Source: Bryobacterales bacterium
GTDB lineage: Bacteria; Acidobacteriota; Terriglobia; Bryobacterales; Bryobacteraceae
Direction of reading: 5' to 3'
Assembly: GCA_003167255.1 (NCBI GenBank)
Contig: PMTR01000160.1
Span: 9,972 to 42,923 of the forward strand
Length of the DNA stretch: 32,952 nucleotides
The notes beneath the pieces were generated by a model. It did not search any database, was not told where the DNA came from, and worked only from the letters and a program-made list of their open reading frames with translations. Both the position numbers and the translations under genes were made by a program. This document shows, piece by piece, positions 28,717 through 32,868 of the stretch; the stretch's first letter is position 1; the number at the start of each line of letters is the position of its first letter.

Positions 28717-28986
28717 TTACAGGCCGTAGGTTCTCTCGGAGCGGATGAGGATACGGACAACGAACACCGCCTTCCTGGCGTGATCTGCCGTAAAAAGCAG
28801 ACGATAAGAACCCATGCGTCGCCAAAAGACGCCTTTCCATTCTGGACCAACGAGCGCTTTCACGTCGCCTTGGAAGGGATCGGTCTCCATGCTGTCCACT
28901 ACGCGCGCAACGCGCTTCTGAATGGCCCGTGGAAGCGCCTCAAGGTCCTTTTGGGCGTCTTCGGTGAAATTACACGCCCAGCTCAT
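28717..28986 (-). CDS. RelE/ParE-type toxin
   Basis: 89 aa, normal toxin length. N-terminal helices (FTEDAQKDLEALPRAIQKRV) are followed by the beta-sheet signature WRRMGSYRLLFTADHARKAV and a final VVRILIRSERTYGL. RelE members cut mRNA at the ribosome; ParE members inhibit gyrase; the sequence alone does not settle which. It starts inside the antitoxin gene (17-nt overlap), so translation is probably coupled. Confidence 0.85.
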   Translation of the reverse strand: MSWACNFTEDAQKDLEALPRAIQKRVARVVDSMETDPFQGDVKALVGPEWKGVFWRRMGSYRLLFTADHARKAVFVVRILIRSERTYGL

Positions 28987-29257
28987 GCTTTACGTCCGCC
29001 CATGCCCTCGTTCTTCCTGCTTTGACCTGGCGCAATCCGTGGCGCACCTTCTTTGCTTCCGTGGTAGTGAGGACGTCATCGGCATCCACGAGGCGTTTCG
29101 GCTTGACAAGCACGCCGTTGCCTTTTTGGCTGAACGCCACGAAATCCCCCTCGCGCATGCGAAGTTTGTCGAAAATCTCGCGGGGAATGACCACTTGGCG
29201 GCGCTGCCCCACCCGGCCGACCGGTTCCCGTGGTGATGCGGAGGATTTGATGCTCAT
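28970..29257 (-). CDS. AbrB/SpoVT-type antitoxin
   Basis: 95 aa. The swapped-hairpin DNA-binding domain is clear at about 13-53: VGQRRQVVIPREIFDKLRMR followed by EGDFVAFSQKGNGVLVKP. The C-terminal half (helical, basic) would wrap the toxin. It precedes the toxin gene, the usual order, and probably represses its own promoter through the palindromes just upstream. An AbrB-type antitoxin with a RelE-type toxin is a known but less common pairing. Confidence 0.88.
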   Translation of the reverse strand: MSIKSSASPREPVGRVGQRRQVVIPREIFDKLRMREGDFVAFSQKGNGVLVKPKRLVDADDVLTTTEAKKVRHGLRQVKAGRTRAWADVKHELGV

Positions 29258-29281: not shown

Positions 29282-29391
29282 AAAATGTCAAGCAACTAGA
29301 GCGCGATCCATCAGAGGGCGCCCGGTGCTCTTCAATTCCAGAGCGTAAATGCGTCCGTCCTCTTTTCACCGGCGCAAATGATTTTGATTCC

Positions 29392-29413
29392 GAGCCGCGA
29401 CCGTGAGGGAGCG
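29392..29413 (+). repeat. Family C dispersed repeat, single copy
   Basis: Same orientation and sequence as the copy at 28613, 66 bp upstream of the YdeI-like ATG. The flanking AAATGCGTC-GTCC motif occurs on both sides (about 29347 and 29427), so the element may sit in a small duplication. Confidence 0.75.
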
Positions 29414-29479
29414 GTGGCCGGGCGAAAATGCGTCTGTCCCTATTCTGCAGAATCCGCCGCTCCGGGCGATAATACTCCC

Positions 29480-30058
29480 ATGAAAGCCACCTTCTTCGCA
29501 ACGCCAACGGCGTTCACCACGTGGCTCGAAGAGAATCATGAGCGAGCCTCGGAATTACTGGTGGGCTTTCACAAGAAGGCTTCGCGCAAGCCGAGCATGA
29601 CGTGGCCGGAAGCCGTCGACCAGGCTCTGTGCTTTGGCTGGATCGACGGAGTCCGCAAGCGCATCGACGATGTCAGCTACACCATTCGCTTTACGCCGCG
29701 AAGGGCTTCCGGCATTTGGAGTTCGGTGAACATTAAACGGGCGCAGGAACTCACCCGCCTGGGGCTCATGCGCCCAGCGGGCCTCCAGGCCTTCGACCGG
29801 CGCGACGAGAAGAAATCCGCCATCTATTCGTATGAACAACGGAACTCCGCACGGTTTCCTGACGCACTAGAGAGTCAGTTCCGCGCCGACAAAAAGGCCT
29901 GGGGCTTCTTCCGGTCTCAGGCGCCGTGGTACCAAAGAACCGCAACGTATTGGGTCGTCAGCGCGAAACGGGATGAGACCCGGCTGAAGCGCCTCGTCAA
30001 GCTAATCGAAGATTCTCAGCAGAACCGGCGGATCGACCAGTTGACCCGCCCCGGTTGA
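29480..30058 (+). CDS. YdeI/OmpD-associated family protein
   Basis: 192 aa from ATG 29480; the frame extends upstream through the repeat without homology. The family signature is clear: FATPTAFTTWLEENHERASE, LLVGFHKKASRKPSMTWPEA, VDQALCFGWIDGVRKRIDD and RFTPRRASGIWSSVNIKRAQ. The C-terminal helical domain (about 115-190) is basic and resembles the 'bacteriocin-protection' segment. The biochemical role of the family is poorly known; homologues are annotated as OmpD-associated or bacteriocin-protective. It is cytoplasmic by sequence. Confidence 0.88.
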   Translation: MKATFFATPTAFTTWLEENHERASELLVGFHKKASRKPSMTWPEAVDQALCFGWIDGVRKRIDDVSYTIRFTPRRASGIWSSVNIKRAQELTRLGLMRPAGLQAFDRRDEKKSAIYSYEQRNSARFPDALESQFRADKKAWGFFRSQAPWYQRTATYWVVSAKRDETRLKRLVKLIEDSQQNRRIDQLTRPG

Positions 30059-30111: not shown

Positions 30112-30570
30112 TCAGCGCATCCGCTTCGCGAACACCGCATCCAGCGAGAATTTGCCCGGCCCGAAAATCAGCACCAGCACCACCGCGAACAGATATGTGT
30201 AGGGCGCGGCGGCGGAGAATTTCCCCGGGTCGGAGAAGATGGAGAACAACGCTTCGCGGTCCGCGGTGAGGTAGGCCACCAGCATGTCTCCGGTGAGCAC
30301 CAGCGCAATCGCCCGCGAGCCCAGGCCCAGCGCCAGCAGGATTCCGCCCGCGAATTCCAGCGTCGCGATCGATGGCGCCATGATCCCCGGCGCGGGAATC
30401 CCCAGCGATGTGAAGAACTGCGTCACATGGTCCAGGTTGCCCAGCTTGCCCCATCCCGTTTGCGCGAACTGCCAGCCCCAGTAAAGACGCACTGCCAGCA
30501 GAAAAGGCGATTGCAGGCTCGACGTGGCCCGAATCAGCAGCCGGTACAAGCGTTCTATGGTGGCTTTCAT
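30112..30570 (-). CDS. DoxX-family membrane protein of the bufferin operon
   Basis: 152 aa from ATG 30570, which overlaps the DUF2063 gene's stop in ATGA. Four hydrophobic segments are visible, with RLYWGWQFAQTGWGKLGNLD, FFTSLGIPAPGIMAPSIATL, EFAGGILLALGLGSRAIALV and PYTYLFAVVLVLIFGPGKFS, all typical of DoxX/DoxD proteins. DoxX members are quinone-linked or redox-associated inner-membrane proteins. In described bufferin clusters a DoxX-like gene is often the last member, perhaps serving oxidation or export. Co-translation with the DUF2063 and DUF692 genes ties it to that pathway. Confidence 0.88.
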   Translation of the reverse strand: MKATIERLYRLLIRATSSLQSPFLLAVRLYWGWQFAQTGWGKLGNLDHVTQFFTSLGIPAPGIMAPSIATLEFAGGILLALGLGSRAIALVLTGDMLVAYLTADREALFSIFSDPGKFSAAAPYTYLFAVVLVLIFGPGKFSLDAVFAKRMR

Positions 30571-31430
30571 GACGGCTTTCCCGGGCGGCAGAACCACCCG
30601 TTTCGCGACCAGGATGCGAACCATTCTTCCATCTGGCCGCGGACCTCGTCAAGCGGCTGCGCACTGTCTTTGAAGACGCTGTCGATGGCTTCGCCCACCG
30701 GCTTGCCTGCGCCCAGCGCCTCGAGCAGCCGGAACTCCGCCGGATCCATCCGCTTGTAGTAAACGACGTCGTCGAGGCGATGAACCGCCACGAAAACCGC
30801 TTCCGGTTTCAGACTATAGCGCCGCACCACGCGCCGCTCTTTGTGCCGCAGCACGGCGTTGCTCGCGCCCGCGTGGCCTTCCGGAAGGTCGTTCACGTGC
30901 AGCCTCAGGTCGTCTACCGGGTATCGCAGATCGAGCAGCGTGACGTAGGGCTGCAGGCGGAACGTCATGCCGGTGTCGAGTTCCAGCAGGTCTTCGGGGC
31001 CGAGCACGGGCTCCGCCTCGCCGTCGAAGGCCACAATGTGCGCCCACTCCAAGCGCACCATGTCGAGCGCCAGCGCCGGGTTCTTCCCGGCGTATTCCGG
31101 ATGCGCTTCCAGCCACTCCGCCAGCCGCGAACCCAGGTTCCGCATGGTGAAGGATTCCGACGGCCGCTCCGCCAGATAGGCTCTCGACAGCTTGTCGAAC
31201 ACCCGCAAGCCGATGATGGCGCGCAAACCGGGAAAGTCTTCGTAGAGCGAGTCGAGAAGCCGATACCAGTAGCTCCGCGCGTAGATCTCAAGGCGCTCCG
31301 ACGAGGTCAGCCGGCTGTTCGGCTTGACGATGGCGCCCGCCTCTTCGGCACCCGCCGTGAGTTTGTCGGCGCGGCCCAGCGGCGCCATGATCGCGCCCGC
31401 CATTCGCCGCTGCAATTCGAGCAGGGTCAT
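30567..31430 (-). CDS. DUF2063 protein, MNIO partner (BufC-like)
   Basis: 287 aa from ATG 31430, overlapping the DUF692 stop in ATGA. The N-terminal DUF2063 domain (about 1-95) is recognised by LTSSERLEIYARSYWYRLLD followed by EDFPGLRAIIG. The C-terminal half carries further partner-domain sequence (LDLRYPVDDLRLHVNDLPEG). In known MNIO pathways this partner binds the precursor leader and presents it to the DUF692 enzyme. It has no signal peptide, as expected for cytoplasmic modification before export. Confidence 0.9.
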   Translation of the reverse strand: MTLLELQRRMAGAIMAPLGRADKLTAGAEEAGAIVKPNSRLTSSERLEIYARSYWYRLLDSLYEDFPGLRAIIGLRVFDKLSRAYLAERPSESFTMRNLGSRLAEWLEAHPEYAGKNPALALDMVRLEWAHIVAFDGEAEPVLGPEDLLELDTGMTFRLQPYVTLLDLRYPVDDLRLHVNDLPEGHAGASNAVLRHKERRVVRRYSLKPEAVFVAVHRLDDVVYYKRMDPAEFRLLEALGAGKPVGEAIDSVFKDSAQPLDEVRGQMEEWFASWSRNGWFCRPGKPS

Positions 31431-32275
31431 GGCCGCACCACCGCAGGCGCCGGAAGGTACTTCGCGGCCTTCAGCGCTTCGGCGTGCACTTCGTCGAAGG
31501 AGGGAATGTGGTCGTCCCATTCGAGCAGCGTCGCCGTCGGCCCCACGCGCTTGATGGCGTGTTCATACAGCGCCCACACCGGGTCGATCACCGGGTGGTC
31601 ATGCGTGTCCAGAATGTATTTTTCGAACTTCGAGTGGCCCGCGATATGAATCTGCGCCACGCGCTCCGGCGGCACGGCGTTCAGGTATTCATAGGGGTCG
31701 AAATCGTGGTTCCGCGACGAAACGTAAATGTTGTTCACATCGAGCAGGATGCCGCAATCGGCCCGTTCGACCACTTCGTTGAGGAACTCCCACTCGGTCA
31801 TTTCGGAGATGTGGAATTCGGTGTAGCTGCTGACGTTCTCCACCGCGATGGGCACTTCCAGGAACTCTCGCGCTTCGCGGATCTTGCGCGCCGTCAGCTC
31901 GGCCGCTTCGAAGGTGTAAGGCATCGGCAGAAGATCGTGGGTGTAACGCCCGTCCACGCTGCCCCAGCACAGGTGGTCGGTCAACCAGGGAGTCCGGGTG
32001 CGCTTCACCAGCTTCTTCAACCGCCGCAGGTGCTCGCGGTTCAACGGCTCGGCCGACCCGAAGTACATCGAGACGCCGTGCTGCACCACCTTGTATTGTT
32101 CCAGGATTTTATCGAGCACCGCCAGCGGCCGGCCGCCGTCGGTCATGAAGTTTTCCGAGATGATCTCGAACCAGCCCACCAACGGCTTCTGTTCGAAGAT
32201 GTGCCGGTAATGCGGAATCCGCAGCCCGATCCCGATCCCGTATTCGGAGTGTCCGTTGAATTGGTTGGCAGGCAT
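31427..32275 (-). CDS. DUF692 multinuclear non-heme iron oxidase (MNIO, BufB-like)
   Basis: 282 aa TIM-barrel from ATG 32275; the frame runs upstream without homology and no good ribosome site is seen. MNIO enzymes use two or three iron ions and O2 to convert Cys in a peptide to 5-thiooxazole or related groups. Conserved metal and active-site blocks are present: QHGVSM (His66), VENVSS (Glu146), GILLDVNNIYVSSRNH (Asp179, Asn181/182), QIHIAGHS (His210, His214) and ILDTHDHPVID (Asp223, His225, His227). It follows the precursor gene by 79 bp, separated by a terminator-like hairpin. Confidence 0.95.
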   Translation of the reverse strand: MPANQFNGHSEYGIGIGLRIPHYRHIFEQKPLVGWFEIISENFMTDGGRPLAVLDKILEQYKVVQHGVSMYFGSAEPLNREHLRRLKKLVKRTRTPWLTDHLCWGSVDGRYTHDLLPMPYTFEAAELTARKIREAREFLEVPIAVENVSSYTEFHISEMTEWEFLNEVVERADCGILLDVNNIYVSSRNHDFDPYEYLNAVPPERVAQIHIAGHSKFEKYILDTHDHPVIDPVWALYEHAIKRVGPTATLLEWDDHIPSFDEVHAEALKAAKYLPAPAVVRP

Positions 32276-32286
32276 GAGAAACCGCG

Positions 32287-32321
32287 AAAAAACAGGGGCG
32301 AGAGTACGAAACTCCGCCCCC
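32287..32321 (-). terminator. Hairpin with T-run between precursor and MNIO genes (attenuator)
   Basis: On the minus strand GGGGCG-GAGT, loop TTCGT, ACTC-(T)-CGCCCC, then TGTTTTTT. The stem has about 10 bp with one bulge and the T-run is six. It ends 12 bp before the MNIO ATG. It probably stops most transcripts after the precursor gene and lets a fraction continue, as is common in RiPP operons. Confidence 0.75.
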
Positions 32322-32354
32322 AAATCTGATGCGCTGTGGAGAACCCCTCTACTG

Positions 32355-32639
32355 TTACTTGGAACCGTCGGTGGCGCAGCCGCCCTTACCCTTGCAGGAG
32401 TTTTTGCCCTTGCAGCCGGCGTCGCTGGTCTTGCAGCCACCCTTGCCCGCGCAGGAATTCTTGCCCGCGCAGGAATGCTTTTCGACGGTGGACTTCTTAT
32501 TTGAGGCCTTGCCGGTGGATTTCTGGCTGTTGTTCGCCGGGCTGCCGCTCGTGGGAGCCGCGACCAGCCGCGCTATGGTACCGCCCATCAGGCCGGCGAA
32601 AGCCGCTGATGCTAACACAGAACTCTTCGAAACCTTCAT
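32355..32639 (-). CDS. Bufferin-type RiPP precursor (BufA-like, Cys-rich, secreted)
   Basis: 94 aa, ATG 32639 with AGGAGAGG 7 nt upstream, by far the best ribosome site of the operon. A signal peptide covers about 1-28 (MKVSKSSVLASAAFAGLMGG then TIARLVAA). A Ser/Thr/Lys-rich linker (29-54) leads to the core, which has six Cys in two modules: C57-x5-C63-x5-C69 and C76-x5-C82-x5-C88, a 19-residue period. Recurring elements are KNSC and GKGGC. This matches BufA-type precursors encoded beside DUF692/DUF2063 genes. The MNIO is expected to modify some Cys before Sec export, giving a periplasmic copper-binding peptide. Exact modified positions are unknown. Confidence 0.9.
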   Translation of the reverse strand: MKVSKSSVLASAAFAGLMGGTIARLVAAPTSGSPANNSQKSTGKASNKKSTVEKHSCAGKNSCAGKGGCKTSDAGCKGKNSCKGKGGCATDGSK

Positions 32640-32788: not shown

Positions 32789-32868
32789 ATGCCGTTAAGT
32801 ATTCTTAATGACCGCCGTATTACACCTCTTCAAATTCTTCGCAGCGCGCGACGATTCTGCCGTAACCC

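Follow-up and report, generated by a model that had tools for sequence, protein, structure and literature searches.

A Buf2-type bufferin operon in a Bryobacterales genome and the six-cysteine layout of its precursor

The operon described here, located in a Bryobacterales genome on a stretch of 32,952 nucleotides (the window), is an ordinary member of the Buf2 bufferins, and the Cys layout of its precursor is the commonest one among its nearest relatives. It very probably encodes a peptide that is modified by an MNIO, exported, and able to bind copper. What has been observed is the gene order, the protein families, the conservation of a presumed active site, the predicted fold of the partner protein and the homology of the precursor. 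The first-pass annotation had proposed a bufferin-type RiPP operon, and enzyme family, partner fold, gene order and precursor homology bear this out.

The operon and the proteins it encodes

The genes are ordered precursor, MNIO, DUF2063 partner and DoxX (Table 1), with the last three linked by two 4-bp ATGA overlaps; the arrangement of four minus-strand genes read in the first-pass annotation was thus confirmed, both overlaps being present. The start of the MNIO gene was taken to be the ATG at 32275, the open frame reaching back to a GTG at 32440, within the precursor.

Table 1. Features of the bufferin-type operon, in window coordinates
Feature	Position	Strand	Remarks
Buf2-type bufferin precursor	32355..32639	(-)	94 aa; Sec-like N-terminal signal by eye (MKVSKSSVLASAAFAGLMGG...); six Cys
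Core, precursor residues 57-88	32376..32471	(-)	C-x5-C-x5-C-x6-C-x5-C-x5-C; coordinates derived from residue numbers
Precursor-MNIO gap with terminator-like hairpin	32276..32354	(-)	
MNIO (DUF692), bufferin maturase BufB	31427..32275	(-)	282 aa; NF050167, PF05114
DUF2063 partner, PME-type 1, predicted RRE-like C-terminal domain	30567..31430	(-)	287 aa; PF09836
DoxX-family membrane protein	30112..30570	(-)	152 aa; PF07681

The MNIO exceeds the curated cut-off of the BufB model (NF050167 MNIO_BufB, 348.7 bits, cut-off 310) and that of PF05114 (362.3 bits), and it does not reach those of the HvfB (250.2 bits, cut-off 360) or MbnB (36.5 bits, cut-off 325) models. Related loci were collected by a search with 16 aligned MNIOs, and the best 80 of 587 confirmed loci were retained, a set that therefore represents the best matches to a window-led alignment and no random sample. 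In 79-80 of these 80 loci, H66, H101, E146, D179, N182, H210, D223, H225, E252 and D254 are conserved, and those His, Asp and Glu residues that we take to be metal ligands were aligned to 3BWW, 8HCI and 7DZ9. The position of D255, within EWDDHIP, is occupied by Asp in 56 and by Ala in 17 of the same best 80 loci. The accessible text of PMC13097082 describes a 'Cys-Lys' peptide group whose MNIOs carry Asp in place of Phe250 of FonB, and D255 would fit this Phe-to-Asp change under a residue mapping that we infer.

The partner scores 57.1 bits against PF09836 (DUF2063; cut-off 27.2) and 22.2 bits against NGO1945_C, below its cut-off of 27; it also stays below the cut-off of the curated HvfC model. 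Although its sequence gave no reliable match in the PDB, a fold search did, the AlphaFold2 model (mean pLDDT 86.6) matching 3DEE (NGO1945; Z 15.3 over 198 residues) and TglI (8HI7_A; Z 13.3 over 238 residues), while its C-terminal part resembles lasso-peptide RREs of the TbiB1 type with a Z of about 6, weak if taken alone. As modelled, the protein agrees with the description of a PME-type 1 partner, that is, DUF2063 plus an RRE-type domain. The fold match and the conserved presumed ligands speak for a partner that recognises the precursor and an MNIO that oxidises its Cys. The DoxX protein exceeds the cut-off of PF07681 (69.5 bits, cut-off 23.6) and falls under that of HvfX (NF050144; 62.7 bits, cut-off 80).

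The genome search returned a single MNIO match and a single BufA2-type match in the window's genome. The nearest named relative, among the best 80 of 587 confirmed loci, is a Bryobacterales MAG whose MNIO is 95% identical, which supports an acidobacterial host. MNIOs of this kind are patchy in the neighbourhood, with matches in 24 of 101 genomes (including that of the window). Beside the operon, and convergent with DoxX, lies a gene for an OmdA/YdeI 'bacteriocin-protection' family protein (29378-30058, plus strand), and ParE-like toxin and MazE-like antitoxin genes that overlap by 17 bases occupy 28717-29257 on the minus strand.

Cysteine layout of the precursor and its place among the bufferins

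The six Cys of the precursor stand at positions 57, 63, 69, 76, 82 and 88, that is, as two C-x5-C-x5-C groups separated by six residues, with a period of 19. Since a doubled C-x5-C-x5-C with a linker of 1-20 arises in only 1 of 200,000 shuffles of the 66 residues from position 29, the spacing is not due to chance, and the core of two such modules with a 19-residue period, as originally described, stands. The modules CAGKNSCAGKGGC and CKGKNSCKGKGGC, read from the sequence, are identical at 11 of 13 positions.

Whether this duplication is peculiar has to be judged against what is known of the family. The text of PMC12452194 distinguishes two bufferin families. Of the Buf2 precursors, 90% have six conserved Cys and the others twelve; the core of their clusters comprises the precursor, MNIO, DUF2063 and DoxX genes. 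Taking into account that Buf2 precursors are described there with 6 or 12 conserved Cys, the 'doubled' core corresponds to the ordinary six-Cys unit. By the Cys number, signal and gene order so described, the window operon fits Buf2. The Buf2 members (Buf_6/12Cys) named in the same text are those of Caulobacter vibrioides, Legionella pneumophila and Cognaticolwellia aestuarii, and its main text, taken apart from the taxonomic charts and supplements, does not contain 'Acidobact'. Six-Cys precursors linked to DUF692 have also been reported from gammaproteobacteria in the accessible part of PMC8692599, with homologues 'almost exclusively from Proteobacteria'.

Precursors in the related loci were sought by Cys pattern in the 1.2 kb that precede the MNIO gene, the candidate nearest to the MNIO being taken. 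A candidate Cys-rich precursor was found in 71 of the best 80 of 587 loci, and 57 of the 71 have one of two clean six-Cys patterns. This frequent company of enzyme and peptide argues against an unmodified, metallothionein-like Cys-rich peptide with the enzyme acting elsewhere, as does homology to Buf2, whose C. vibrioides member is modified according to preliminary work mentioned in the text of PMC12452194. Six closely spaced Cys would suit such a peptide, and no fold is predicted for the precursor (the AlphaFold model built with 15 homologues has a pLDDT of 50.9 and was set aside as unusable); we nevertheless regard this explanation as highly improbable, and modification by the MNIO as the preferred reading.

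The doubled pattern is present in 39 of the 80 loci, two of which are Legionella hexad arrays (L135, L136) that meet it by repetition; 18 loci have a displaced last Cys, 10 a partial pattern and 4 another one, and in 9 no precursor was found by pattern. The doubled form extends over Acidobacteriota, Verrucomicrobiota, Planctomycetota, Myxococcota, Chlamydiota, a Melainabacteria MAG and the two Legionella arrays; cultured relatives that have it include Edaphobacter aggregans and Silvibacterium bohemicum. In the displaced form, the last Cys follows the fifth by 12-13 residues (KGxG-W/F...C), whereas in the window it follows by six (KGKGGC). This form is mostly proteobacterial (14 Pseudomonadota, 3 Myxococcota and 1 Binatota among the best 80 loci), and it also occurs in Acidobacteriota (L032-L042). 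In several relatives, two or more units follow one another, and some relatives have 12 or more Cys. Profiles of hand-chosen doubled (15) and displaced (10) precursors match each other with a probability of 98.8 and an E of 1.4e-16, over an aligned stretch that is rich in Cys, Gly and Lys and stops before C6. The product of 32355-32639 thus does resemble MNIO-linked precursors, a likeness on whose absence the original proposal would have foundered.

In a quick MNIO tree, in which 22 of 78 inner branches are starred and 23 open, the window falls in a starred clade; of its 38 rows, the window being one, 28 others have the doubled form. From the spread over several phyla, the profile match and these 28 doubled members, we conclude that the two-module unit is old and that the relatives have it in common. 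The first-pass annotation had suggested that the doubled core might set the acidobacterial member apart, and the comparison does not support this, the six Cys being the standard Buf2 unit and the doubled pattern the commonest among the best-matching MNIO loci. The related idea of a recent, lineage-specific duplication that created two new equivalent metal sites draws on the agreement between the modules noted above; as a lineage-specific event it is already contradicted by the spread of the unit over 39 of 80 loci and several phyla (the Legionella arrays included), and we consider it scarcely credible. Within the clade of the window, Acidobacteriota and Verrucomicrobiota are intermixed, and its neighbours by path include Verrucomicrobiales MAGs; horizontal transfer or mis-binned MAGs may explain this mixing.

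Some members of this clade have lost C4 alone (L063) or C3 together with C4 (L072, L075, L082), with C1, C2, C5 and C6 kept; C3 is never lost alone, and from these sequences the middle pair looks optional. A tally of Cys over 69 distinct units contains mis-paired units (L070, L100, L102, L106, L109, L111, L130 and L131), and C2 and C5 are invariant in it by construction, so the Fisher test made on it was set aside. The 116 collected precursors include duplicates (e.g., L053 is the window itself, and L003 and L062 are one genome). The window precursor has an Ala after C2, where the other 14 of 15 aligned precursors have Lys.

With regard to curated models, the precursor has no match in Pfam, and its match to NCBIfam BufA2 (NF050166; E 5.7e-7, 29.7 bits) does not reach the curated cut-off of 60, nor does the 37.1 bits obtained in the genome search. 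Single-match scores of doubled-form loci (L043-L059 and L061) range from 30.0 to 46.8 bits, and those of displaced-form loci from 62.2 to 70.1 (L032-L041), with 58.2 for L042; summed over units, G481 (L059, doubled) attains 60.5 and G318:C1, whose form was not read, 64. The model had matches in none of 14 control genomes, among them C. vibrioides, a Buf2 carrier according to the text consulted, so it misses some members. Judging from these sub-threshold scores, many precursors of this sort may well be left without a name when genomes are annotated. No DUF2282 was found in the precursor (by Pfam) or in the window's genome, while the C. vibrioides control was positive, and a DUF2282/Buf1 identity was therefore rejected. 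Thus, of the two alignments initially recommended, the one to DUF2282 gave nothing and the one to BufA gave a Buf2/BufA2 match, below the cut-off.

Compared with known systems, the window operon shares with Buf2 bufferins the gene order, the N-terminal signal, six Cys with CKGxNxCKGxG motifs, a BufB-type MNIO, DUF2063 and DoxX; its departures, in the position of the last Cys relative to the displaced form and in the score below the BufA2 cut-off, are modest. Methanobactin MbnABC and TglA/TglHI have in common with it the MNIO superfamily and a TglI-like partner fold; their precursors differ from that of the window. The oxazolin/fontiphorin EGKCG peptides (HvfA, FonA; 'captophorins') are likewise accompanied by an MNIO, a DUF2063 partner and a DoxX/HvfX-like protein, but they repeat EGKCG where the window has an NSCKG-type motif. 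Buf1 bufferins follow the same operon logic, and their MNIOs fall in one large sequence cluster with those of Buf2 according to the text of PMC12452194; they differ in DUF2282 and in having four Cys instead of six.

A further proposal, which we put forward tentatively and hold to be possible rather than probable, is that the KGKGGC form, with six Cys in hexad register and the last one undisplaced, constitutes a distinct Buf2 subfamily of Acidobacteriota, Verrucomicrobiota, Planctomycetota and neighbours. It would have its own MNIO clade, lie mostly under the BufA2 cut-off, lack a Buf1-like outer disulphide, hold copper differently, and treat C3/C4 as optional.

The partner is present in at least 67 of the 80 loci (by sequence) and DoxX in at least 28 (preceding the MNIO gene in L073 and L133), both counts being lower bounds because several loci end early.

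Expression and export signals

The gap between precursor and MNIO, shorter than 220 nt in 65 of the 71 loci with a candidate precursor, contains in the window a GC-rich terminator-like hairpin (-19.5 kcal/mol) followed by a T-run, TGTTTTTT, some 17 nt ahead of the start of the MNIO gene. The hairpin is kept in the nearest relative (L062). By a stricter rule, such hairpins occur in 17 of 66 gaps (65 loci and the window), whereas 20 dinucleotide-shuffled sets gave 2.5 on average and never more than 6; a looser rule, applied without a control, gives 25 of 66. A consensus terminator scan returned 2 sites where 2.7 were expected, neither of them the gap hairpin. The element may act as an attenuator keeping the precursor in excess over the enzyme.

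Farther upstream, 169 nt from the precursor, an inverted repeat (TTAAGnnnnCTTAA / TTAAGAATACTTAA; 32795-32808, minus strand) is common to the window and L062 and absent from L004, L006 and L031, and it was rejected as a regulatory motif on this distribution.

Among the 116 collected precursors, duplicates kept, 14 begin with a Tat-like twin-arginine pattern (e.g., MNRRDF), identified by pattern match only (L008, L009, L011, L050, L057, L059, L098, L105, L106, L111, L121, L131 and L141, the last with two precursors), and many of the 14 are multi-unit. Signal trimming missed at least L010, L012, L056 and L100, which likewise start with MDRR. The text of PMC12452194, as far as accessible, contains neither 'Tat' nor 'twin-arginine'. 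Export by Tat would be well suited to a peptide that is first modified in the cytoplasm.

Proposed function and the link to copper

The chemistry, the metal and the periplasmic role proposed here are taken from characterised relatives, by analogy with which the operon would work as follows. The precursor would be made in the cytoplasm and presented by the DUF2063/RRE partner to the MNIO, which would oxidise Cys, most likely in an NxC-(K)G context, to thiooxazole-like heterocycles, with the loss of four hydrogens per Cys. The modified peptide would then leave the cytoplasm by way of its N-terminal signal and, once in the periplasm, reduce copper toxicity by binding the metal, probably as Cu(I); DoxX would help at the membrane. 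Copper buffering by thiooxazoles is thus what the family would predict; for Buf2 itself, the text of PMC12452194 states that the modifications have not been identified.

The surroundings of the operon do not speak of copper. The eight neighbouring proteins scanned (ParE-like, MazE-like, OmdA, homoserine dehydrogenase, a methyltransferase, a DsbA-like thioredoxin, lactate permease and a divergent glycogen debranching enzyme) include no copper protein, and a search confined to the CsoR family found no such regulator in the window's genome, so a copper link via the neighbourhood was rejected. This would agree with an operon of the same type whose peptide deals not with copper but with a different metal (gold, mercury, zinc) or with oxidative stress. 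In favour of this reading, the text of PMC12452194 reports fusions to MerC and raises the possibility of other metals, and the Legionella GIG operon is reported to respond to gold as well as to copper. Moreover, the text of PMC12538549 describes a related Microbulbifer MNIO cluster that, under the conditions tested, was not expressed and showed no response to copper, a result that counts against a general copper-stress role. Nevertheless, the accessible text of PMC13097082 gives Cu binding as the general rule for the products of characterised MNIO-PME1 clusters, and another metal or stress seems unlikely to us, copper being the ligand we favour.

The operon adds an acidobacterial member to a known family of copper-handling RiPPs, and a core that had seemed special turns out to be common in the loci closest to it. 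Comparing the two Cys layouts offers a natural way to ask which Cys are modified by the MNIO and which hold the fold.
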